A DNA stretch of 64,000 nucleotides from Morinoia aosen (Eukaryota > Arthropoda > Malacostraca > Amphipoda > Talitridae): assembly GCA_030386875.1 (NCBI GenBank), contig CM059566.1, positions 36,802,068-36,866,067 on the forward strand, given 5' to 3'. Shown one piece after another: positions 23,101 to 59,100 of the stretch. The notes beneath the pieces were generated by a model, which ran no database searches, had not been told where the DNA came from, and was given only the letters and a program-made list of their open reading frames with translations. Each line of letters begins with the position of its first letter. Position 1 is the stretch's first letter. The position numbers and the translations under genes are program-made.

Positions 23101-26100
23101 GCAGAAGCACCATCACATGAGAGAGAATGGAAACAAAGTAAAATGAAAAAGCGTGCAAGAACGCGTGCTGCTCTTACGTGTCCTCGAGGAGGCGTGGGTG
23201 TTGTGGTGAGGTAAGGGGAGGGTGTAGAACCTCGAGACTGAGGTGCAAAAAGCAAGTGTGAGGGTAGTTCGAGTACAGAACGGGCCAGAATAAGACCAAA
23301 GGGAGAAAAAGTGTCCAGGGAAAGCGAGCATACCGGTCGAGGTTCAGGAGAAGTACCAAAAAAAATGAAAGATTAAAAGAAAACAACATAAAGGGAAGAA
23401 ATTTGGGGAAGCAATTAAAAGTGGGAAAATATAACAGAAAATAACAAGAAACAAATCAGCAAAGAAAAAAAGTGCCATATTTAACCGTGGTGTAGGACAA
23501 AAATAAATGTGACAGAGCAGAATTTAAGTCCGACTCAGCAAAGGAGGCGCAGAAAACAAAACCAAGTAGAAGGGAAACACGGTCACAAAACCCAACATGC
23601 ACCAGTGCAGAGCAATGAAGAATAATTTGAAAATTATTGCGAGATGAAAAGTTAGTTTACGGAAAAAAGTAGAAAAATCAAGATGGTTTTTCATAGGTAA
23701 AAAAGTGAAACGAAACGATGATGATTAAAATACAAGTAGTAAGGGATATTGAAGAGAAAAATAAGAAATGTTTTTTAAAAGCAAAAACGTTAATTAATGG
23801 AAAAATAAAATGACAATGTAACAGAAGGAAAAATGGCCAACGGCAAAAATGCGCGATGGATAGTAGAAGGAGAAAAAATTATTATAATCATTGAAGGAAG
23901 AGCAGAGAAATGAAAAGCAGAGAAATGGAAAGCAGAGAAATGGAAAGCAAAGAAATAGAGCAAATGAAGAAAAGATAAAAAAGAGCAAGAAACGATAAAA
24001 AAAATAGGAAGAAACAATAAAAAAGAGATGAAGAAATGAAATGATAAAAATGAGGAAGAAGCGATAAAAATAGAGGAAGAAACAATAAAAAAAGAGGAAG
24101 AAACAATACAAAAAAAAGAGGAAGAAACAATACAAAAAAAGTGTAAGAAACAATACAAAAAAGAGGAAGAAACAATACAAAAAAAGAGGAGGAAACAATA
24201 AAAAAAGAGGAGGAAACAATAAAAAAGAGGAAGAAACAATAAAAAAAGAGGAGGAAACAATAAAAAAAAGAGGAGGAAACAATAAAAAAAGAGGAAGAAA
24301 CGATAAAAAAGAGGAAGAAACGATAAAAAAGAGGAAGAAACGATAAAAAAAGAGGAAGAAACGATAAAGAAGAGGAAGAAATAATAAAAAAGAGTAACAC
24401 ACACAAGAGAACACAAATGACGTGAACAGATGAACAGTGCGGAAATAGAGGCCACAAGACGGAGTGAGGGAGATGGTCACAGTACGCGTGGGGGAGACAA
24501 TCATGTGATTAATGCACGCTCACACAACACAGGCTAAGCGCTACCACGCACAACTTACTTGTATTTGCCGGCACACAAGCTGTTCTTTCAGACTAGTGCA
24601 AAAATAACTTTATCAAAGTTGCCATAAAATCGATCTACACCAAGACATGGCTTGGGCGTGTAGTCAAATTTGTTAACATGACAAAATTGTGCATCTCACA
24701 CTTTGACAAACTCCAAAGTTATTCCAATACATCGGCTTGTGCACGAAATTATCAACTAGGCGTCTACAACTGAACGATATCCAAAAACGAACACATCAAT
24801 CTGCACGACCAAGATGGTTACATAAATCACGGATTAACAATTGGACACGCAGCTCTAATTTTTTGGTTGTATGGACTTCAGTACAAATTCAGGTAATATA
24901 AAATGACGAGACTAATTATAACTTATATAATTACGCCATCACATCATGCTGAGACTGCTAAAATAAAATTTCTAGCGAAGACTTCCAGGCAAACGTGTAT
25001 TCACGAACAGAGATTAGCTAAGCGACAACCTACAACATTACTCATACGGTAATGGATGTAAATAATCAACTTTTGAGCTACGCCAAATTGCTATAACACA
25101 CTAGGCTGAACTAAATTAATAACTTTTGTAGAAAAGAACCCACTCGCACCAAAAGCTACAAGACGACACCGACTGTGCGAAATGAAGCAGCTGTGTGACA
25201 CACACAGACAAAATAAAGAACGAGGTGTTGGACATTCATAGAAAAATTTGTCATAAGCTAACTGGATGATAAACTACAGCTGGCTACAACTAATGACCAC
25301 CCTATTCATTATTCTGCCTCTGGCTCTAATTAAATTTAATCTAGTTAGTTTCTGCTCAAGCGGGTAATTAACGCTGTGCACACAAGTCAAAATTGTTATA
25401 TCGCTGCAACGATAAATTGTGAACGTGTTATTCCATTATATTACTCAGTAGAAAAAAAAACAATAGCAGTTACGTTCTATTGAACACAAGAAATTCGACA
25501 GTAAGACAAGAACATACACAACCACAACACACGCCTCCTTCATAGCGGGAAGCTCTCACTTGAAGACTTTGGAATGCGCTGCACAACACTTCATCTATTC
25601 TCACTCGACTCCGTCAACACGTGGGGAGTGCACACAAACATACACTGGAGAACACAGAGCAAATTTGAACACACAAACAAGTGACGCGAAACACACGGAA
25701 CACAAAATCGCTGAGCACAACATACTCTGGAACAGAAAACTCTTTGTAGAAAATACTCTTCAACATTCGAACACTTGGCGCAATACACACACTAGAGCGC
25801 AGAATCATAGCATAGTGCATAAAATTGAGCACACAACACCATGACGCAACATACAACACCATCACGCAACACACACCCCGACGCGACGCAACACAACACA
25901 ACAATATCACGCAACACACAACACCACGACGCAACACCACAAAACAACATCACGCAACACCTCACAAAAATATCACGCAACACACAACACAATGACGCAA
26001 CACATACAACACAACAATATCACGCAACACCACACAAAAATATCACGCAACACACAACACAATGACGCAACACACACAACACAACAATATCACGCAACAC

Positions 26101-29100
26101 AAAATACCACACAACACCACCATACAAAACTCACTCGGGAAATTGGAGCCAAGCTGGGAGCTCTTGCGCTTGGCCTCGCGGTCGTCCGGGATGATCTTGC
26201 CGAGGAAAGAATGGAGCTTCTTGTCCCTAGGCGCCTTCTTGCGCACCTGACCGATACACAGCTCCTCCACCAGCTTGGCGCACGTCTTGTGGATGTTCAT
26301 CTCGCAGTCTGCACGCAGATTAGATGTTAGTTCAGGCCTCCCTAACTGAAGCGTTCAAAAAAAAGAGAAAGGAGGAAGGCACCACTTAGTCTGAACGCAT
26401 CAAAATACACAACGCATAACGTAATCATGACATGCATAACGTTCTCGTTCTCTGAATTCTCTTCCGTTGCCTTAGGTCTCTCAATTCGTTTCTCAAAATC
26501 ATTTTTTTCCAGTCATTTCTTCCCCCGTGGCAGCATTTGTCTACTTTTCGCCAGTCGGATTGGTTATGGGTCTCATTCAGTATTCTTCCTGAAACTTTTC
26601 GATTCGACATTTCTTCTAAGCAATAAACCTGTTCTTTTGTTTCGGTTTCCCACCGTTGTGAATACTCGATCTTGCTGTACATGCTATTTCATTCAATCCT
26701 GAGAAGCGCTTTGATACTTTAAATGTCATGCGATGGCAGGCTTCTACTTGAACTTGAAATACAGTAGTTTTGCCTAATGTTTCATTTCTTTTACTGGACT
26801 TTCTCTGCTTCTTCCCAGAGACAATTGCATTCCAGTGTGCAGTTTCGAGTAGATACAGAGCACGTGGCAATAAAACGCGAAAAGTTTAAAAGTTCTTGGA
26901 CGTTCAGCAAGATATAAATTAAATTGGAATCCTGAACCCCGCACAACAAAAAGAAGCAAGTCATTAAAAACATAAATTAACTGTATGCTGTAATCGTCCA
27001 AGTGAAGTGTGCATTTTCTGTATCCTGACTACAAGTTAAAGGGATGAAAGACATGTATTGATTGCACTCGTGGAATTGTCTTAGCGGTCATATGGAAAAC
27101 GTGTGAGTGTTACCAGGATAACACTCACTGGCACACCGGTACACACACTCACTTGCACACTGGTACACACACTCACTTGCACACTGGTACACACACTCAC
27201 TGACACACTGATACACACACTCACTGGCCCACTGGTACACACACTCACTGGCACACTGGTACACACACTCACTGGCACACTGGTACACACACTCACTGGC
27301 ACACTGGTACACACACTCACTGGCACACTGGTACACACACTCACTGGCACACCGGTACACACACTCACTGGCACAACGGTACACACACTCACTGGCAAAC
27401 TGGTACACACACTAACTGGCACAACGGTACACACACTCACTGGCACACCGGTACACACACTCACTGGCACACTGGTATACACACTCACTGGCACACTGGT
27501 ACACACTCTCACTGGCACTACGGTTTACACTCACTGGCACACTGGTATCCCTGGGGAGCGACGCCCCAGATCACGTCCTGGCAGTGGTTGCAGTAAGTGA
27601 CGCTGTAGTAGGTCATCTGGTTGAAGCAGTGCTCCCGCACCAGTTGCTGCAATGGAACATTCAATAATTAGCACAGAAACGATAACAAACTGTGATTAAA
27701 ACTGAACAATAAACATGAACTGCAATATGATGGATTGGATTAGATGTTAGTTGAAGCCTTCCTAACCGCTACCAAATGAAGCGTTCCAGAGAGAAAGGCT
27801 CCATTTAGTATGGAGATAAGGGAACGCGGAATCTATGCAATAGAGGTATAGAGACAGAAAAGAAGTATATGAAACAAGATAAAAGTTGAAGAAGAAAGTA
27901 GTAGGTGCTGAACAACAGGACAGCAGTGGAGCGAAAAAAAGTAGTCCTTTACATAACAAAAAACCTTTTATTTCAACAAAAAGAAGGGCTACCTAACTCT
28001 CAGCTAGAGCCCTCATACATTCTACCCTGGGAGTGCTAATTTCTATAGATGCAATAGTTCTATCCCCCTGAGGGGACCAGTTTCTACAATGGAAGATTCA
28101 ATAATTAGCGCTCAACTGTGATGCTCGACCTTAACATAGAGATACACAAGGGGGAAGTTGATTTATTTGAATTCCATCAACAATGCGCAAATCACAGATT
28201 TTAGGATGTATCAGAGGAGCCAAGTGAAATTTCAATTTCCTGAAAAAATTATAACCAAAGAATCGAAGGCAACTTTTACGGTGACATAAAATATTTAGTC
28301 CAATCGTTTGTTTAGGATTGTGAGACTGAAGGTTATTTTGAACCTCGTACCATGAGAAGCCAAGATAATATTCTTTGTTATGTTTCACAGGCAACAGCTC
28401 ACTCCTTGATGAGCTATTATATGTCCTAACAAGATTTCTTAATCAAAAAACACTACTTTTGAAAACTGACCGTACAAGCACACTAATGAACGCAACTGCA
28501 CCCTAGATCCTTAACATTCATCTTAATGAGAAAGAGACGGTAACAACTGCCAAGAAAAGACATAAACTATGTCTTCCGTTTTTATTTTACAAGGCACGTA
28601 TAAATCAACTTTGCCTCCCTCTCTATTTAACTATGCACGTATAAACCAACTTTGCCTCCCTCTCTATTTAACTATACACGTATAAATCAACTTTGCCTCC
28701 CTCTCTATTTAACCATGCACATATAAATCAACTTTGCCTCCCTTTCTATTTAACTATGCATGTATAAATCACCTTTGCCTCCCTTCTCTACTTAACCATG
28801 CACTTGACCCAAATATTGCCCAAACCTTCTTGTTGGCCTTGAAGAACTTGCTCCTGAGGGGCCTGTCCCTGTTGACATAGAGAGGGCACCGGTCGATGAG
28901 CGCCATAGCCTTAGGACTGCGCACATTGAACCACTTCCACAGCAGCGTCGCCAAGCTCGAGGCCATGATCAGCGAGTGGTCGTCGTGGTTCCAGTCGTCA
29001 CTGCAGAAAATAAACCATGTAGTCAGTATGTTAGGCAGTGTGAGCCAACCTGTCAACTGTTACTGAAACGATAGCAGAAAATAAAAAGTGGTCAGTATGT

Positions 29101-32100
29101 TAGGCAGTGTGAGCCAACCTGTCAACTGTTACTGAAATGATAGCAGAAAATAAAAAGTGGTCAGTATGTTAGGCAGTGTGAGCCAACCTGTCAACTGTTA
29201 CTGAAATGATAGCGGAAAATAAAAAGTGGTCAGTATGTTAGGCAGTGTGAGCCAACCTGTCAACTGTTACTGAAACGATAGCAGAAAATAAAAAGTGGTC
29301 AGTATGTTAGGCAGTGTGAGCCAACCTGTCAACTGTTACTGAAATGATAGCGGAAAATAAAAAGTGGTCAGTATGTTAGGCAGTGTGAGCCAACCTGTCA
29401 ACTGTTACTGAAATGATAGCGGAAAATAAAAAGTGGTCAGTATGTAAGGCAGTGTGAGCCAACCTGTCAACTGTTACTTAAATGATAGCAGAAAATAAAA
29501 AGTGGTCAGTATGTTAGGCAGTGTGAGCCAACGCAACTGGAATGCTAGAGCTAATGGTATGCACGATAACTTTTAATACCAGGAAGTACAAGCTAATACT
29601 TGTAGAGATAAATATGTGCGTCTACAAGTGAGCTATTTAGCTCAAAGTTCACACGTCAAGCAACTTTTCGACTCGCTATTTTTACAGGTGCATTAATGTG
29701 TGTGTGTACTTTTTCTGAAGGAGTGGATTCTTATGTACATAAATAAAAGCATGTTACGGCTGTAGTCCTACAGTACTATAGAGCAAGTCACTCTACAAGT
29801 TACTACTGAGATGGAATGTGAATAACAGATATTGCACATGTTGATAAGAAAGTGTGCGCGAGCCATCTGAACGATAGTACTGCAGCTGAGCACGTTGAAT
29901 TTTCATGATTAGAAGAAAGGATTTTGTGGCTGTGATGCACATGAATATTTAAATTAGCATGTCAGATAACCATTTATGTTTCTACTGGTATCTACCAGAT
30001 ACAAGAAGATAAAAATTTGTAAGAAAATGCTTACATGCAAGCCATATCATAAGCACTGCAACATAAAAAAATCCTTTCACACTCAATCAGGCGTTGCAAG
30101 AAAGAAGAACACAAAATCTACCAAAGTTATTTTTGCATCAAAAAATTTTGATAGATATTTGACGTCAAAATTCTTGAAATTGAACTTATATTAACAGCTA
30201 CTATTGTATAATTGAAAAATGTCGCTAGTGCCTATTTTGCAAAGGAAGTCATAACTCGGATTACCCAGACCTGTTCAGCTAGGTCCCTGAACCTCGACTA
30301 TGGGTACTTTCGACACCCATGGCAGTGTGTTGAGCCCGGCACTACACAATTAACTGTGGTGCGGGTGAAAACGTAGAACTATGAGCATAACAATCAAATT
30401 ATCAATGGTTAAATTAGCCCGCAAATTGAGAGTTAATCAACAGAAGATTTTCACTCTGTGCGCTTGTATCCTTTCTCTTGCTGTGGACTTACAGGCATTC
30501 TGAATTTTGCTATCATGACATATTTCAACCATCTAACAAATAACGACAAATAGAGACTTGCAGTCGCGTAAGCTGTTCAACCAGCCAGGACACACACACA
30601 GCACCAGCAAGATGCGTGACTCACATTCGCTATCGCGACTCATCTAAACTGTCCAACAGGTTACAACAGAAAGCAACTAGCAGCTGGTGTAAGTTGAACA
30701 GGTCAGAACACACATCACCACCAAGGTGCGCGACACACTGCCCCAGCAAGGCCAAGGCGCACCCGACGCGTACCTGACGCTCTCGAGGAAGGGCACCAGG
30801 ACGAGCTCGATGATGCTCATCTCCTTGTTCTTGTTGTGCTGACTCTCCATGAGCTGGGCGTCGGGGGGCCCAAAGATGTTGCCAAGGCCCGCCATGCGCT
30901 TTGAGCGGAAGTCTGCGAGCTGCTCGTTGAGCACCTCTCTCGCCCGCTGCCGCACTTTCAGGAACACCTGCGGCACCGCTCGCCATCAACATCTGGCTCA
31001 ACATACTCGCCAGTGAGCTACAAAGCTCAGCACCTACTTCACAAGACCAGCTTTTATATACAGGTCGTTCATTAACATCAACAGTCCAAGTAATCTTTTA
31101 GTATAAAATAAATCTCCAAGTCCAGCACTTCTGCAGGTAAGAGACTAGACTTTAAGTTGAACACGCTTCCTTAACCCCATAAAGTTGCTTACAACAAATA
31201 AAGGAGCAAGGCACCTTTCATTGTAGTATGAAAGGAAACTGGAATCAATCTAAATAATGCACCTTGCGTATCAAAATAGGAAAATTAAAAGGAGATAAAA
31301 GAATGTTAAACTAGTAAGTACCAAAAAATAAGACAAAAGCAAACCAGAAAATTAATGTCCATAACAAAAACTATTTTAACAAGGTAAAAGCCTACCTTGG
31401 GACCTCACATTATACTCTTGGGAGTGCTAATTCCCTCAGAGACAATAGTTTTATTCCCTTGAGGGGCTTCAGATCGATAGATTTTTGCAAGTTTTTAGTC
31501 TAAATAAAAACAAGACATCTCACGTCACAATCGGCAACTTGAACCACACTCACTGCCCTAACTACATGAATCACCCAAACCACATAAACTAATAACTACA
31601 CCAACTATCTCCATCACTCGCGACTCACATTAAACGAGCCAACATTTCCAACCTCACACACCTGGCCTAAGCTACGCTGGACTTCAAATACGATCTCTAA
31701 ACAAACTCACTTTACGGAGAGTCTCCTCTTTGTCCAGGTCGTGCCGCAAGGTCTCGTCGATCTCATTGAGCACAGCGTCATCTATTGTGCACCCCACAGG
31801 CATGGGCTGCACAGTTACAACAGAAATATTCTTAACGTCCGGCATCATGGAGGTACCTAACGGAGGAATAGAAATGTTACTAAATAATAGCATCTACTTT
31901 AGCATCGTGAAATTCGCTTGAATGAAGGAATAGGCTTCAGCCCTGATATCGAAGCGATAATTTTACCTCAGCTTCAAGTCAGCGGGGAAACTGTAAGAGT
32001 AGCTTTGAGTTCAACCTAATGCCGGTCACTCGAAACAACACTGAAAACTTTTCCTACACACAGGCGAGAGAGAAAGAGTATTTTAGTTCAAGGGAGCACT

Positions 32101-35100
32101 ATTCACTTACTGCGCTTGGAAGCAAAAATGAGGAATGTATTTCGTAGGCCCACTTCTTCATTTCTTTGGCAGCTCCTTCTTTGTACAGGTCGGTGATCAT
32201 GTAGAAAAACTGAAAATAAATGTAAAAGATTACCAGCAGATAATTTTTGATACCAGCAAATATCGATGTATAAAAACAGAATGACAATTCATAAGAAACA
32301 TGCCAGAAATCAGAGACAGTACGGGATCAATTCACCAAAATATTTCAACACTTAGCCATAGAATTACTAAATCAACTAAAACATGAAATAAAATGATGAA
32401 AATGTCCACAATTATAACCGTTGTTCTCACTTGACTCTTGATTCACAGAGAGTACGTCATGGAGGACTTCATTATACACAATAAAATAATCTCTTATAAG
32501 CTATACAATAAGTGTAAAATAATAGCTGAATTAGATCTGCTTCCAAAGCAAGTAGGAGCTCCTACTCTATACTGCAGCTGCACATACAAGCTCACAACTG
32601 TAGGTTGAACGAGTGTGCTAGTTTAATATTTACTGGAATATTTTCTGCGCCGAAATTTTGTAAGCGACTAACAAACCTCAGCCATGGGTGCAAAAAGTTA
32701 GTACCAAGGACAATCAGACAAGTTATAAAATTTCAAACTACTCTGAGGCAACTAGAAACTGCGGCAGATCAGCGATACGATTCATGTGAATGAACCTACG
32801 CATTGCATGACAAATTTCCTACCCTTCGTGAAACGAGTCAATTCCGAAGTGTTTTCCTTCATTCCCTCTTATTGGTAAAAAAGAAGCGAGTCCCAAAATA
32901 GTGATAACTTTCACCGAAGTTATTGCGACTTACTGCAGTGGCAGGAGAGCAGTTTGAGATGATGAAGTTCATGAAGACTGCGAGGTACGCGGGGTGCGTC
33001 CAGAGCTTGCTCAGCGACTGGAAGGGGCCGTGGTCGCCGTACTGGACACAAACACAGGGCATTGGGAGATTATTTTGTTACCTAGGATGTTTCCGCTGTA
33101 CATGACACTTCGACGATATCACAGCACAACTCAGTTGAGACTTAGCAAGGAGTTGCGAAGGTGGAAGAGAAAAAGCGAGGGGGAATCCATTTTTAGATTA
33201 CAGATGTTTAGTATAATTAAGCTTCCCTGATCATGACAAAGGTGTTCCAAATAGAGAATGGAGGAATGCACTATTTACTATGGAGTTTGGAAAATGGGGA
33301 ATCTATGCCCAATGTGTGTTCTCACAAAAGATCATCTGGGCACAGAAACAGCAAGTTAGGAAGTGAGATTATGAAACAAGATGAAACTCGAACAAGAAAG
33401 TAGTAGACGCTGAAGAACAGAACAGCAGTGAACTAAAAAGATGTTCTGGTAAAACTAAAAACCAATTCCATTTCAACAAAAGGCCTACCCAATTTTCTGT
33501 TCGGGATTTCATACTTTTCCCCTGAGAGGGCGAATTCCCTGAGATACTACAGTTGTATCCCCCTCGAGGGGGGAAAATCGATCTGAAAACGTGAAGTAAT
33601 AAGTGCGCCACACTTAATACGCATCACATTTCTTATACGAGTAGCTACAGACAAAACGGGAGTAATTTACAGTGACATCAATGAGAGAATATCTAAATGA
33701 ATTCACGTCATTATAGTGATCAAGGTACGCACTAAACCTTCTTGTAAATAAATTGAATTAGTCTTGAGGTATATATATATATATATTGTATATGGTATAT
33801 AGGTATATACCAAGCCTTTTCCTCTTTTCAAGTAGAGGGTGGCTAGCATCATTTACATGATACTTCACAGGGAATGTACATGATAAGGGTTCCCCAGGCC
33901 CCTAGTCACGCCCGAGCTTTAGGCCTCATTTTCTCTCGTTTAGTGCTCAGGTAACATTCCTTGAGGACAGTGACCATACTGCAGGCAACGACCCTGATTT
34001 GCCGCATCAGCGTTTTTCACGCCAACTGCCGCTCACAGGAATCGAACCTGGGCATGAAGCATAGAACGCAAGCGCTCTATACACTCGGCCACTGCGAGGC
34101 CACTGCGAATTAGTCTTGAGAATAGTCAGAAAAGATTACAAATTGGAAAACCCGTATGAATAAGATGATATTGAGCACTTCCGTACCTAAAACAAGCAAA
34201 AATACCCAGTACTGGTTAATCAAATCAGTGGAGACAAGAAACAGAGCTCACAATAGTAATGATAATCAGGATAATGATGACGATAATCAGGATAATAATG
34301 ACGATAATCAGGATAATAATGACGATAATCAGGATAATGATGACGATAATCAGGATAATAATGACGATAATCAGGATAATAATGACGATAATCAGGATAA
34401 TGATGACGATAATCAGGATAATGATGACGATAATCAGGATAATGATGACGATAATCAGGATAATGATGACGATAATCAGGATAATGATGACGATAATCAG
34501 GATAATGATGCCGATAATCAGGAAAATGATGACGATAATCAGAAAAATGATGACAATCAGGAAAATGATGACAATAATCAGGAAAATAATGACGATAATC
34601 AGGAAAATGATGACGATAGTAATGATAATTATGATAATAATAGTAATAATTATGAGCTCAGTTAAGGACAACTTCGGTCATAGAATATTTAGTTGTCGCA
34701 GAGCTCACCATGGCCTCGGAGTCGGAGAAATCGTCGTCCTCCATGCTCTGGATGGCGGTCTGTGCCCAGGTCGTGTGGCCATCCATCACGCCCATCATGC
34801 TTGTGGTCATCTGCCCGGGTATGTGCGTGTTATAAAGGGCAAGGATACAGCGGTCAGGTCGCACTGCCGGCCGGAGAGCTAAGGAAATCAACCGTAGCTT
34901 TGTGTGGCTCTTTTAAGTAAAACATGTGTGTAAAGTTTGATCTTGTTTCTCCCGAAATTGCAGCGTGAAGCTGATCCAAAACCTAAATTTCCTCGCATTT
35001 TCAGGTCAGAACAACGGTGATGCACCATTGAAGTTGCGTAAGTTTCTCTGGATTAAGTGCTAAGATAAATATGGCTGGTGACAAAAAATATCACAGATTT

Positions 35101-38100: not shown

Positions 38101-41100
38101 TGTCCGTGTAAAGATACGTTTAATATAGAAAGTTATGGCAGCCCCATAGAAGATATTGTACAGCTTGGCATAGATGTAGCCGTAAGTTATTTTCTAACAA
38201 AAAAGTCACATTCAAAAATATTAGGAATAGTCGAATAAAAACAATAGTAGTTATAAACGTGACGGTGATGAAACAATGATGATTCGGAGAGGAATAAAGA
38301 TAAACTTAGTGGGCAGCAATGTCAGTGATGGTAGCGTAATGAAAGGAACATTAGCAGCAACATAAATGGAAGTGACGATAGCAATGAAGGGTGGAAAGTT
38401 AGTGATGATGGGTGGAAAGTTAGTGATGATGGGTGGGAAGTTAATGATGATGGGTGGGAAGTTAATGATGATGAGTGGGAAGTTAATGATGATGAGTGGG
38501 AAGTTAGTGATGATGAGTGGGAAGTTAGTGATGATGAGTGGGAAGTTAGTGATGATGAGTGGGAAGTTAGTGATGATGGGTGGGAAGTTAGTGATGATGA
38601 GTGGGAAGTTAGTGATGATGAGTGGGAAGTTAGTGATGATGAGTGGGAAGTTAGTGATGATGAGTGGGAAGTTAGTGATGATGGGTGGAAAGTTAGTGAT
38701 GATGGGTGGAAAGTTAGTGATGATGGGTGGAAAGTTAGTGATGATGGGTGGGAAGTTAGTGATGATGGGTGGGAAGTTAGTGATGATGAGTGGGAAGTTA
38801 ATGATGATGAGTGGGAAGTTAGTGATGATGAGTGGGAAGTTAGTGATGATGAGTGGGAAGTTAGTGATGATGGGTGGGAAGTTAGTGATGATGAGTGGGA
38901 AGTTAGTGATGATGAGTGGGAAGTTAGTGATGATGAGTGGGAAGTTAGTGATGATGAGTGGGAAGTTAGTGATGATGGGTGGGAAGTTAGTGATGACGGC
39001 GATGAGACAGCGTGAGGCAGCGGCAGCAGCACATACGGCGGCGTGGGCAGGGTAGAGGGACGGGGGTACAGGCCAAGCGTTAGTGGACACGACACGAAGC
39101 TGGTCGCAGCACCGCCGTGGTTTACACCACTTCCGTGTACACAGCCGCTGTGTACTGCACTCAGCACACCATGTACACAGCGGATGTGCACTGTACACAG
39201 CATAGCATGTATGTATACAACGGCTGTGTACTGTAGGCAACATAGCAGGTATGTACACAGCAATTGTGTTGCGTTCTGTACACAGTACAATATGTACACA
39301 GGTGCCGTGTACACAGCACAATTTGTACACAGGTGCCGTGTACACAGCACAATTTGTACACAGGTGCCGTGTACATGGCACAATATGTACACAGGTGCCG
39401 TATACACAGCACAATATGTACACAGTGGCTGTGTGGTGTACACAGCACAATATGCTCAAAGCAGCTGCACGGCGTACACGACACGACACAAGACACGACA
39501 CGTTCACACGATAGCAACCTGAACACGTCACTAGCATCAGTTTGGGCAACACGCAAGAAGCTCAGCATGAGCTAAGACTTAACTGAAAGCAATAGTAATT
39601 CAATTACCTTGAGATCAGAAACAATTGGAAAAGTTAACAAGAAAACTCCCAATAATTTGTGTCTCTATCGGCAGTGTAGACCCAGTAATATTGGAATGCG
39701 GCTATTAACAAGTAAATTTTCTATAGAAATATCATAGAGACTACCATTCAACTATTATCCAGTTGACGCAAAAATAGCATTCGACTCCCACACTAATAAT
39801 TAATATTGTCTTTATTTACCGTCTTCTTTATGTACTTTATTTGAGTCGTACAATCGTTCCTAACGACATGGTCGTTTTTCAGAATTACTGCGCGTTGTTT
39901 GCTTATTTTCTGATACTCTGCGCAAATGTGCCGCAGCACGCCAAGCCGCGACTGGAGTCGCTGGAAACAATTGCCGCCTACTACCTCTGCAGTCATATTT
40001 CAGAACTGATTCCATTCTATTTTAATGAGTTCAAACTTGACAAAAGAATGATAAATGACGGAAAATTTAATTCGGAAATATTTTTCAAACGTAAAAACGA
40101 CTGAAAATGTGAAAAGCATGGAAAAATTTGGCCAAGTTTTCCACCACCAATGTTGTGCGAGTCAACATGAACGTCGCCTTACCAATTAGTTATTAGCTCA
40201 AAACGTATGTTCATATACAATTTTTGCACACATTTTTATCAACATAAACACTGATATTATTAGCGACGTATTAGAAATCGAATAAATGATCCTCAGAGTT
40301 TTAATGTACAAGAACTGACACAAGATAATGTAATTGAATCAAAAGAATTCGAATATACCAAGCTTCCAACTACCATCGCCACGTCAGCAACGGAATAGAG
40401 ATGCCCTATCCAACACTTGTGCTGCCTCAAGAGCAGGTCGAAGCTGCAGCTGCTCTCAGCGCAGCCTTTACAAAGACTAAGGGATCATCCCCGACAGACC
40501 TGGGCACGAAGGGAATTTCCATGCACGTCGGTACACAACACCACACACTCTCACTAGCAAACACTAAGCACAGGACTACAAGTTTAGGAAGTTTCATCTC
40601 TATAGATGAGGGCTTCTTAGTGATGTGCACCTGAGTCCAAACGTAATGTTCCAGCACGCGGCACTAAACACAACCATGATATCACACAGGTATATATTAC
40701 TCTAACCACGAGCATGGAGACTTGAAAGTAATGAAAATTGCACCTCCTATTTCATTACTGAAATAAAAAACAACATTTTTAGGTATGGTTTGCAAGTCAA
40801 TGCACAGAAAATATGAACCACGCTCATATTTAGAAAAATTTTACTTGTAGAAAGAAAATTGTTAAAACTTTGCATGTTCGTCTTGAATGAATGAGAGTAA
40901 GTTCCATTCGGCGGGTGCCTCTCACCTCGTCAGGAATCGTGGAGTAGTTTTCATCATCATCCTGGTCATCATCGTCAGCAGAATTGACCGCACCGCCGCC
41001 GCCGCCGCCGCCACCGCCACCACCACCATGGTCGGCCCCACCAACAGCGCTCACTGCAGCGACCGACGCAGCACCAGCAGGCGTTGCCAGCGAGCTCGAG

Positions 41101-50100: not shown

Positions 50101-53100
50101 TTCATAGTCAATTCAAATACTGTATGGTGAAAGTCAACAGAATGTTGATCATGTTTACAATTGTACAGGTTGTTTCATAAGTTGGGCTTTACACCAAGGA
50201 TTGTGAACTTTAATACAATAAAATAGATTATTTTGTGTTTAATAAAATAGATACCTTTGTGTTTATTGCGCTAACACAGGTTTGAAACACAAAATATCAC
50301 TCCTACTCAATTAAAGAATGAAAAATTCAAGCCCCCAGCTTCCAAAAAAAAATGCAATAAAAATCTTGTAATATAAAGGATATATAAACTATTATAAAAT
50401 GAGGTACTGGAATAAAATTGGACCAAACTTGCTTTCAGCTCCTTTTGAAAGAATTCAGCCACTCTCTGGAGAAAATAAAATTGGCAAAATGCATTTGAAC
50501 AAAATTAAAAAAGCTGAAAATACCACTAATAACAGAAGTTGGTGTGACAAAATACCTCACAAATAGTGAAGTGACACAAGAAAACCTAACAAGAACTGCT
50601 ATATCAAGCACTAATGTGGACTAGGAATGGTGAAAACTTTAAATTCTCAATTGATAAGAACATTGAAGGAAAGACTACAATATCCTCACTATCTACCTTA
50701 CCACAATTAGACAACATGTCAGCTAATGTGTACAATATTAGCCAAATTATTCAGATGAAATGAAAAACATTTACAATTCTTCAACAAGAACGATTATCAA
50801 ATGAATGTTCCAAAATGTTACATAAAAGAAAGCATTAGTCATGAGAGTAAGGGGGAGAATGACTTACATTTGATGATCTGCACGACCTCCCTGTGGTTGA
50901 ACTTGGACACGGGTGTGCCATTTACCTTCATGATGCAGTCCCCCACCTGCACCCCAGCCAGACAAGCAGGGCCTCCTGCAAACACAAGCCATGCATCATC
51001 TCACTCTCGACTACACTAGAGGCATGGCATGGCTTGAGGTTGCTCTAATTCTAGTGTGTGTGCTTCTTTCAAGTTCTTCATGTGTAAAAATAGGAAAATC
51101 ACTCAATATTTTTCATCAACAACTCAACATTCTAAATAACAGCATTTTCATTTATTATTTTATCACGTGAAGAGCTTGTTATGCTTTTCTATGATTATAC
51201 AGTAGTATGTGCAACACTAAAGGTGATGTGAGCATCAATAGGTTTGTCATTCTGCATATGTGGAGTGTACACTATAGAGGGTGGAGTAAAACATGACAAC
51301 TAAATAGAATGCTTGAGCAAAACAAGTGGTATGTCCATGAGAAAGTGGTGGTGGTGGTAGTAGTAGTGCAAAACGTGTGATGTATGCAGTATAAAGGTGA
51401 GGCTGAATTCTGGAGCACCATTCTGAATGCAAGATGTGCACTTCTGAGGTTATAAAGTCCATATTTTTTAATAACATTCACATATGCTTTTCGTAAAACT
51501 ACTCCTTTCTATGCTCAGACATTCATTACAAAACCAGTAAAGTGGACCTCCGAGTAATGTCGTTCTCAGGTTTCGTTTTTTCATATTATACAGTGAAATA
51601 GGAAGTTTTTGTCCCCTTGTTACGGCTTTTCCTCTGCCTTATGGCATCAACCAAAAAATTCCAAAATTCAAGCTTGGCGGTCGGTGTGCGTATGACTGAG
51701 CCTCACCCCACGCTTATACGTCACTACACCCATACCTCAGTTTTACGCATCCTGTTTCAGCAAATTTTGGATTCTAGGGACAAATTCTTGAGTTACCAAT
51801 TTTATTTGAACGTTGCACACATTACAGACAAAGTCTGTTAGTTCCAAAACTGACCGCTAGGTGGCAGGTAGTCGCCTTGTTGTCAACACTGTTTCAGCAC
51901 CTGCATTGCATTGCTCTCAATTTTTGCTCCTTTTTCTGTGTTGTGCTCCATTTTTTGTACCAGTGGTTTGTTCATTTACAGTGTATAGGTGTTTTTCAGC
52001 ATCAGATTGAATGGTGTGCTTTATTAAAGGTACAGTTCTTTCTCTTTTGTAATGTTATTGTTGATATTAGTCATTCGTAGCGTACAGTATACGTATGCTG
52101 GATGCTTCAAACAACCAGGACTATCAGACAGGAGTTCCCCCAATTTGTCCATAAAACCAAGGTATGGGTCTATAAACTTTACTGCACACATCAGCGACAT
52201 CACTAAGATGCCAATATGTTATTGGCCTGCCATGCGATTTCGTCTTACGATCCAAATTCCAGAACAGATTAATGTCGTATGGAAGGGGTCCACGGCATAA
52301 CTTTGTGCCAAAGCTTCTCAAACATTGGAGATTCACAATTACAATGCATATAATTGTTTCATGGTGCATGAATTAATTTGAAAATTAGATAGATAAGGAT
52401 ACATGTACTTGTATTGACAAAATATAGTGATAGTGAAATATGTTAGGAAAAGTGTAAATAAGTTATTAATTACATTGGCTTATGAAAAGAGATCTGCTTC
52501 TAAAGAATTGTACACAATTAGATATTACTGACTGCATGGCTTCAAATTTCTCCACTTTTGGCACACCTGCATCAATCCAACATGGTTCACAATGAGTTTT
52601 TCTGTATTCTATACTACTGAACAATTCCATAAGGCAATACTACTAATTATCAATAATTCAAATTCAGCACAGAAACTAGGCAAGACCAAGGAAATGACTG
52701 AATTTTTTCATTTTAGTTTCATTCTATAAGCATAAGTTATCACCAGTCTGTTGATAGCTAAAAATGCAACATACAATAGAAAGAATTTTATATCAAAAAT
52801 AATCAATTCGATCAGAGATGGTATAATATAAATTCAAAATGGCTGCACCTCAATAATATTTAAGATTGAACGTAAACTTGGCTTAAAAATTTTCCTTTCA
52901 TCCCATTTGGTGTTTAATTTGGCTATCCTCTTCCAAAAACAGTTAAATGCATTTAGAGTGAGCCAATAATCAAAAGAAATTATATACTCAGCACCAAATA
53001 GTGTCAGGACACTCAGCATTAAAGAGAACAGGAGCCCAAACTTGTGCAAATGTAGTTAATTATATTGGCAAGAAGCAGGATTATTAGACTGGTCTTTGTA

Positions 53101-56100: not shown

Positions 56101-59100
56101 TGAGCAGAAACTAGCCAGATGTGCATGAGGCTGCATCATAGATAAGCAGACATTACTTGAAAACTAATTGTTCCTTCAGGTAAAATTCCTGTTTTTGCTA
56201 AATTAGCATCAATTTTTTTTTGTGGTTCAAGGTAGAGATAACAATGAATCAGTAACATGTGAAGCATCATAACACACAAATTACATTCACTTCCCACTCC
56301 ACTAATCTATACTATAATAAGAGCCGCGTCCGTCCGTCTGTCTGTCCGAAGCAGCCTGCAGTGTGTGATGAGCGTATCTGTGATACAAGCTCAAGCCCTA
56401 TATATTTTGACGGGCTGTGTTCACGCGGCCTAATCAACTCTTGAGAGATTGTATTTTTTAATTTCTTATGGCCTTTCTCTCATTTCGCCCTGTTTTTCTT
56501 ATTTCAAATTAAGGGGGATGGACTAGTGAACATAATAATGCAAATAATAATACTAAATTTAAACTTTTAAAAAACCTGGATGCCAAATTTGATGAACTGC
56601 TGCATATAATGATATAATGGTATATTAGACATACCCAAATTCAGCATGTCAAATTCAAGAAAAAAAGTTTTGAATGTATTCAAGCATGTATTGCTCTTAT
56701 TTGATGTGATCCAGATGCTGTGATGTGTGCAGAGCCACTTTTCAAGCCAAAATTTATGAAAAATAGTGAAATACTGTGTCCTATCTGCCACCTTATATAG
56801 CACTTCATAATCTAGTTCTTGTCTAAAAATTGAGAAATCAGTCCTTGCTCATAATACAAAATATAAAACCAAAATTAATGCATACTGCTATTTATAAGAT
56901 TTGACGGCTTCAGTTCCAATTAAGGCCTGCTTCAGTTTCACGTCCAATTCAATAGATGGCGCTATAGGTTAAAATGCCTTTATGATCCAAATAACCCTGT
57001 AAATCCAAATGTATTGAATTAAAAAAAACTTTTGTCGACTTGATACATAGTAACTTCGAATATTTCATTGGGTTGGCCACTCTTCGGTTAGGTTGGGTTG
57101 GTCACGCTTGGGTTAGGTTGGGTTGGTCACGCTTGGGTTAGGTTGGGTTGGTCACGCTTGGGTTAGGTTGGTCACGTTTTGGCTAGGTTGGGTTGGTTAT
57201 GCTTCGGTTAGGTTAGGTTGGTCACGCTTTGGTTAGGTAAGTCACGTTTCGGTTAGGTTGGGTTGGTCACGCTTGGGTTGGGTTGGTCACGATTCGGTAA
57301 GGTTGAGTTGGTCACGGTTAGGTTAGGTTGGTCCCAGTTTGGTTGGGTTGGTCACGCTTTGGTTGGGTTGGGCTTCTTTGGGTTGGGTTACCATTGGCTC
57401 CGGCTGGTGGAATGTTTTGAAAGTTTTGCGGGTCTTAATCGGAACCGTACCCAATTTGACTAAGAAATTAGGGTAAATGTTGAAGACTTGACCATAATTG
57501 ATTTTGGATTTTTCGATGCCGAAATAATGTTAATCAGATCAAAAGAAACAAGTTTTCTTCAATGCACTTTTCGGCGGAAACGAGTATTTTAAAAGTTATA
57601 GCGGTAAATGAGTTACAGGAACTCCAGTGTTTCAGGCGGGGAAAAATATACCGCGCGGTCTGACGTGAAAGTAAACAGGCGTTGCCGCGCGCCAACCAAG
57701 CCGACTTCGCTAGAAAAAATAAAGAAGAGAAGCAAACCCCCTATTACAAACGTAAAGATGTTGGGTTGTGAGGGCTAGCAACAGTTCTTTTAGTGAAAAT
57801 TATATAGAAAGGTTTTAACCGACCCATTTCGTCGAACGTTCGACGTATCTGAGAGCATTCGAATGAATTCGTTCGGATCGATAAATGAACTCGTCATCTC
57901 ATTAATTATGTTTATGCATAGTAGAATTTCAATTGATTTCCAATTTTCACTAAAAGAACTGTGCTACCCCTCTCGACCCAACCTCTTTACGTTTGTAATA
58001 GGGTGATGCTTCCCTTTTTCATTTATTCCCGCCTTGAACACTGGAGTTCCGTTAACTCATTTACCGCTATAACTTTTAAAATACTTGTTTCCGCCGGAAA
58101 GTGCATTGAAGAAAACTTGTTTTTTTTTCCTCATTAACATTATTTCGGCATCGAAAATTCCAAAATCAATTATGGTCAAGTCCTCAACATTTACCAAAAT
58201 TAGATATTCAACAAAAAAATTGGTCAATATTTAATATAATGTTGTCAACAAATTTCATAATTTTGTAGGTATAGATGGGTAATATAGTCGATTATAAGAC
58301 GTTTCACATGAATGACATTTTGCCCGGCGATGCGTTATTTTTGAATTATTCAACTTTGAAGCTGGCTTGTGCGCGCCATGGAAGCAAGCAGGGCTAGCGT
58401 AATTTAATCAATACCAGAAGGGAAGCTAAACCCCTATTACAAACGTAAAGAGGTTGGGTCGTGAGGGGTAGGCACAGTTCTTTTAGTGAAAATTATAAAT
58501 AAAGGTTTCGAGTGACGTTTGTTTACTTCAACGCCAAGGTGGCTGCCGCCATGGCGCCAACCGGCTGAAGATGGCGGCAGCCATCTTCAAGTCGATGTAA
58601 ACAAACGTCACTAGAAAGCTTTATTTATAATTTCCACTAAAAGAACTGTTGCTACCCCTCACGACCCAACCTCTTTACGTTTGTAATAGGGGTTAGCTTC
58701 CATTTTCATTGCTAAAACGATGACTGTTTTTGCGTTAAAAGGGCCATTCAGGAGCGCCGTTTGTATAACTTCAAACTTAAATAACTCGAAAACTAAGCAT
58801 TTCCGGGCACATTGTCATTCGTGTAAAACGTCTTAAAATCAACTATATTACCCATCTATACCTACGAAACTATGAAATTCGTTGACAACATTATATTCAA
58901 TATTGACCAAAAAATTATTTAAATAAGTTCTAATAAATAATCAGAAATGGTTCTCAAAATTGGTTGACCTGTAGCAGGACATGATTTTGCAATGCTCCAT
59001 AATCTTCCACTTGAATGTTATGCTTAAGTTACACCTATTAATGCACGTATATCATTCATTTCTTTGGCCAATATATGAAGCATTGTTTCCTAGGAAAAGT

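Follow-up and report, generated by a model that had tools for sequence, protein, structure and literature searches.

The putative RhoGEF2-type gene of the amphipod Morinoia aosen contains an exon, coding for the first half of a C1 domain, that ends inside a 24-bp minisatellite whose first unit is the exon-intron junction itself. We propose, with a probability of roughly 0.83, that this array is a 'mirage': local tandem duplication at the boundary of exon and intron would have given rise to the minisatellite, and it would be tolerated since splicing still takes the first donor. The array lies in a window of 64,000 nucleotides, the whole stretch of DNA that was analysed (G000:C11:36802068-36866067), from a genome of 2.0 Gb in 29 contigs. 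Positions are those of the window unless a contig is named.

A C1 exon that ends inside a minisatellite

Pieces of PDZ, RGS-like, C1 and DH domains were found on one strand (Table 1). From their order and strand we infer that they belong to a single minus-strand gene, probably of the RhoGEF2 type; the order PDZ, RGS-like, C1, DH is presumably that of insect RhoGEF2. The RGS-like matches (Pfam PF09128) fall within 32862-33077, 32102-32326 and 30680-30985 on the minus strand, profile positions 3-33 and 35-67 being matched above the cut-off and positions 96-157 falling short of it (22 bits against 27). DH matches, of which the second is weaker, lie about 230 kb beyond the C1 exon. The exon with the second half of the C1 domain, 26135-26308, stays by itself under the curated cut-off for C1_1 (E 0.0022), and when it is joined from its first base, 26308, to exon 27535-27646 the match covers C1_1 positions 1-52/53 with an E value of 2.3e-15.

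TRF reported one array at the C1 exon (27121-27547, minus strand, period 24, 17.9 copies, 91% matches). The first unit of the array is the junction at the end of exon 27535-27646, where the terminal TACCAGTGTGCCA is followed immediately by GTGAGTG. The last 13 exon bases and GTGAGTG make up the first 20 bases of the repeat unit and a TGTG tail completes it, a composition that had been proposed in the sequence-only reading and with which both TRF and our table of units agree. The same reading had counted about 18 donor copies after the true one; the row is indeed that large, but 17 copies follow, and 18 is the number obtained when the true donor is included. The first spacing between units is 22 bp and the remaining sixteen are 24 bp, the last copy begins at 27128, and the two variant copies are GTGAGA at 27512 and GTTAGT at 27416. 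All 20 bases of the exon end are matched in six of the 17 array copies.

Table 1. Coordinates of the domains, splice signals and neighbouring arrays discussed in the text
Feature	Position	Strand	Remarks
PDZ match	50866..50979 (C11:36852933-36853046)	minus	E 1.6e-4, over the cut-off; upstream in the gene
RGS-like exon stretch	30774..33040	minus	Pfam PF09128; identifies the gene
69-bp tandem array, 7.7 copies	29003..29532	minus	TRF; in the intron before exon 28826-29000, ends at its acceptor
41-bp tandem array, 5.4 copies	28583..28803	minus	TRF; starts about 23 bp after exon 28826-29000
C1 domain, first half, coding exon	27535..27646 (112 nt)	minus	Pfam C1_1 positions 1-32, E 1.9e-8
Putative authentic donor GT	27533..27534	minus	CCA followed by GTGAGTG; in-frame joining to the acceptor preceding 26308 restores C1
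TAG in the reading frame of the exon	27518..27520	minus	encountered by all 17 extensions
17 further donor-like copies	27127..27512	minus	15 GTGAGT, 1 GTGAGA, 1 GTTAGT
C1 domain, second half, next exon	26135..26308	minus	C1_1 positions 33-52
Tandem array	25830-26101	-	TRF; begins 34 bp past exon 26135-26308
DH (RhoGEF) match	C11:36598495-36598785	same as C1 exon	E 7.4e-12

Other arrays accompany exons of this gene. The 69-bp unit contains a branch-point-like CTAAC and a pyrimidine tract, and a probe taken from the exon-side end of its array gave four matches, all within that locus. Among eight arrays between 25.6 and 41.6 kb of the window, five lie within 70 bp of an exon (p 0.0016) and three within 30 bp (p 0.017), these p values being post hoc and the exons partly drawn by eye. 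Long plus-strand open frames accompany two 21-bp arrays, 38384-38996 (29 copies) and 34261-34641 (18 copies), of which the latter is 68 bp from an exon of the RhoGEF2-type gene as drawn. The window also holds an irregular array at 57068-57390, rich in GGTTAGGTTGGGTTGG, which resembles the telomere-like repeats of arthropods.

Evidence for a local origin of the unit

The exact 20-mer formed by the exon end and donor occurs seven times in 1.99 Gb, every time at the C1 exon locus, and the same 20-mer read backwards, used as a control, gave no match in 1.99 Gb. Its repetition at the C1 exon is not due to chance. A looser search, the sole one to cover inexact copies, listed 86 other places in the genome with 65-79% identity to the query, and the seven of these that were typed are all arrays of other units. 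One unit recurring at several sites, as in a dispersed satellite family, was not found, the exact 20-mer being confined to the locus; a dispersed satellite origin is consequently disfavoured.

The exon-derived part of the unit is largely C1 coding sequence: nine of its 13 bases specify the core residues Y-Q-C, and other C1 exons of the genome share the flanking cysteine and glycine. Among the 20 C1 matches listed, six (L025-L028, L030 and L038) end at profile position 32, as does the match in 27535-27646, and in all six a donor-like GT follows one base after the match, in the same phase as at 27535. Three of these are copies of one sequence, L025 and L026 agreeing to 99.9% and L027 coding for the same residues. 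The 20 matches came from 150 of 225 candidates scored, and the C1 exon of the window is absent from them. Because other C1 matches stop at the same profile position, the data suggest that the intron position is old. Since the 20-mer is unique to the locus and its exon part consists mostly of C1 core residues, the likely direction, judged from domain conservation and uniqueness, is from exon to array. Growth by duplication of the junction, already put forward in the sequence-only reading, is thus well supported by the local unit, its C1 core content and the shared stop position of the exons. Furthermore, the junction holds an 8-base near-duplicate, CCAGTGTG adjoining CCAGTGAG.

Predicted outcome of using a later donor

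Every extension to one of the 17 later donors adds 1 mod 3 bases, and hence would shift the frame as well as run into the TAG; the frame is, on prediction, a second barrier beside the stop. An in-frame TAG had been noticed before and is present, met by every extension, although it is better placed in the second unit than in the first. The predicted U1 duplex has the same energy, -7.6 kcal/mol, at the true donor and at 15 of the 17 copies; nine other donors of the gene, picked by eye within the window, give predicted values from -5.4 to -9.7, a range that includes it. Predicted U1 pairing does not separate the true donor from these 15 copies, and the proposed row of U1 sites is, as far as predicted pairing goes, real as sequence. 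Hiding of the copies by RNA structure was considered and rejected, the fold of exon and array being no better than that of shuffles (z 0.97).

The full C1 domain is restored solely by joining the first donor to the exon beginning at 26308, and for this reason the normal mRNA, judged from the protein alone, probably uses the first donor. Where neighbouring donors compete, the intron-proximal one can win, as the excerpted text of one report describes for SRSF1 at DOK7 (PMC5585400). Such a preference, if applied to the array, would favour the last copies; faithful use of the first donor is accordingly a prediction here and not a given.

Junction repeats at other exons

The frequency of repeated junctions was estimated in 83 exons picked by protein domain and not by repeats (17 C1, 21 PDZ, 25 SH3 and 20 RhoGEF), with a probe of 18 bases (12 of exon and 6 of intron) allowing up to 4 mismatches within about 560 bases of the predicted edge. 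At least one extra copy of the predicted donor junction was found in 8 of the 83 exons and at least two in 6; for the predicted acceptor junction the numbers were 10 and 5. Shuffled sequences would be expected to give totals of 0.33 donor and 0.17 acceptor copies over the 83 exons. The 11 exons with at least two extra copies (6 donor and 5 acceptor) are all distinct, and the same probe placed in exon middles found at least two copies in 0 of 78. Fixed intron positions gave at least two copies at 5-21% of loci, with counts between 2 and 8 out of 38 for each position. The junction rates (6 and 5 of 83) are at or below this intron control and lend no support to a special attraction of arrays to junctions. 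The splice sites in this count are predicted, those of L092, L039, L029, L032 and L022 are doubtful, and a few frames are very long.

Several cases were read by eye. On the donor side, L109 has a 60-bp unit with the exon end and GTGAGT, and L098, L028 and L050 are further cases, the repeated donor junction of the last having been missed by the probe. On the acceptor side are L051 and L078 (C12:58969750-58971090), an SH3 exon with a 34-bp array of about 18 copies in which the acceptor and first exon bases recur in 16 further copies, the mirror image of the donor array at the C1 exon. A PKC-like C1 exon (L023 and L114, C21:31038523 to ~31042300) has 30-bp units that start in the coding match and extend over about 3.8 kb. 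Its exon end, Q-G-Y-Q-C-Q-V-C-C-V, is repeated and stays in frame for 552 bases past the match, which ends at profile position 34 and not at 32; no partner exon was found within 4 kb, and its donor is a candidate.

Five pairs of loci (L019/L020, L025/L026, L044/L046, L047/L048 and L051/L052) agree to about 94-100% over their main aligned blocks and lie 0.7-1.9 Mb apart on one contig, reflecting, on their sequence, either an assembly effect or recent duplication. Copy numbers differ by about one unit at two of them, L051/L052 (1.9 vs 2.9) and L044/L046 (4.5 vs 5.7). Elsewhere, at about 55-72 Mb of contig C27 of G000, many PDZ matches lie in long unbroken, bacterial-looking frames; the contig may include pooled bacterial sequence.

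Coverage by arrays of 2.9 copies or more (distances measured from the domain matches, uncorrected p values in five tests) was raised 0-300 bases downstream of exons: it reached 0.204 there against 0.127 at 300-550 bases (n=78, p 0.0014). In the comparison with upstream sequence the values were 0.210 and 0.099 (n=83, p 0.01), in that with 900-1200 bases 0.244 and 0.092 (n=38, p 0.008), and coverage at 50-250 bases downstream exceeded that at 1000-1200 (n=38, p 0.004). No corresponding rise was seen upstream (0.089 vs 0.108, p 0.80), and for SH3 exons alone downstream coverage (0.140) was not above upstream coverage (0.154). Duplication on the acceptor side may be weeded out more strongly than on the donor side.

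Discussion

Under the duplication reading, the near-duplicate at the junction could have seeded a first slippage, and 24-bp units could then have multiplied through unequal exchange, an ordinary tandem-duplication process having happened to strike a junction. Transcripts spliced at a later copy would presumably be removed by nonsense-mediated decay after the frame shift and stop, and the array would be mostly passive, with possible leakage into unproductive RNA.

It is unlikely, in our judgement, that the array is regulatory, its copies being landing sites or decoys for U1 and the amount of RhoGEF2-type protein being adjusted through unproductive RNA made at later copies. Such a role would agree with the 15 of 17 copies that keep GTGAGT and equal the true donor in predicted U1 energy, with the TAG and frame shift that await 17 of 17, and with IFI6, whose repeat units serve as donors (PMC4526556). 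Changes are also scarcer in the donor hexamer than in the exon-derived part (2/102 vs 17/221, p 0.044; 1/90 vs 12/195, p 0.069, without the two end units), but the unit tail is as unchanged as the donor (4/85, or 1/75 without the end units), and in changes relative to the unit consensus the donor compares with the tail at p 0.41 and with all other positions at p 0.08. Because the units are related by descent the counts of changes are not independent, and conservation of the hexamer is at most a hint of selection. Arrays are, moreover, common at intron positions generally (5-21%), and the array folded together with the exon does no better than shuffles.

We regard it as very improbable that the array existed first as an independent satellite from which the exon end was captured, or which the exon merely abuts: 86 looser matches do exist in the genome, but the seven typed have other units, the exact 20-mer is found at this locus alone, and the exon part is C1 core coding sequence with neighbouring residues that recur in other C1 exons. 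Scarcely likely at all is an assembly artefact that gave the array a wrong length or a wrong contact with the exon. The near-identical pairs of loci on one contig mean that duplication errors are possible elsewhere in the assembly; here, however, the units differ by point changes, the exon unit stands within an intact coding sequence, and exon-edge arrays are present at other loci too.

Should splicing keep faithfully to the first donor in a row of about 18 near-identical ones, U1 pairing alone cannot set donor choice, and the C1 locus would be a ready natural test of rules of position and exon context. A broader and more doubtful suggestion, which we put forward tentatively, is that junction repetition is pervasive in this genome, affecting about one exon in eight (11 of 83, by predicted edges) with arrays 1.6-2.7 times denser just downstream of exons than at greater distance, and that the spliceosome routinely chooses among near-identical sites. 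If true, the genome would serve as a natural library in which to study how one donor is selected out of identical copies, and it would keep supplying shifted exon ends.

Comparison with known systems

A minisatellite with multiple splice donors in IFI6 (6-16) was reportedly described by Turri et al. in 1995, and Zhuo in 2007 is said to have described intron change or gain via tandem repeats or duplications holding splice signals. Excerpted reports state that tandem repeats at exon-intron boundaries can alter splicing (PMC2812944) and that introns can be gained through tandem duplication (PMC4974935 and others); unlike those gains, no new intron is evident at the C1 exon, where an existing intron position was enlarged. 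The C. elegans minisatellite CeRep25B is, like our array, built on 24 bases; it is intronic, linked to splicing decisions and located near alternatively spliced exons, but it is dispersed, and derivation from an exon end is not stated in the excerpted text of PMC4039745.

We found no array in a C1 exon in the literature search, and none of the titles and abstract openings covered concerned a minisatellite across a junction of an insect or crustacean gene, which is no proof of absence. The earlier statement that no example is described in a C1 exon holds for the literature in this sense; the general shape has been described, and further C1 exons with repeats occur in this very genome (L023 and L028). 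As far as we searched, the gene, the animal group (within that literature) and the count within a single genome, taken from 83 exons whose edges are predicted, are new.

The closest counterparts are the mirages of amphioxus, which excerpts of PMC3087553 and PMC3902484 describe as minisatellite-like tandem duplications of exon-intron boundaries in the Adh3, globin, troponin C and PGBD5 genes. Units in Adh3 measure 10-72 bp. Many copies in mirages bear AG/GT signals, 5' as well as 3' boundaries are involved, and regular splicing is apparently undisturbed by the mirages (PMC3087553, PMC3902484). The array at 27121-27547 shares with them a tandem minisatellite spanning the boundary and many copies bearing the splice signal, GTGAGT being kept in 15 of the 17 further copies; it differs in belonging to an arthropod genome and a RhoGEF2-type gene, in its approximately 18 units, and in being known here from sequence alone. 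In human IFI6 two downstream minisatellite units are said, in the excerpted text, to act as donors and to give three mRNAs (PMC4526556). In both, an exon end is followed by minisatellite units that hold splice donor sequences, but downstream units are said to be used in IFI6, whereas each downstream unit at the C1 exon would give a stop. By its likeness to amphioxus mirages and IFI6, the C1-exon array is, on this comparison, of a kind already described, and the recurrence of such repeats at other exons of the genome suggests that junction-spanning minisatellites may exceed the amphioxus and human cases in generality.
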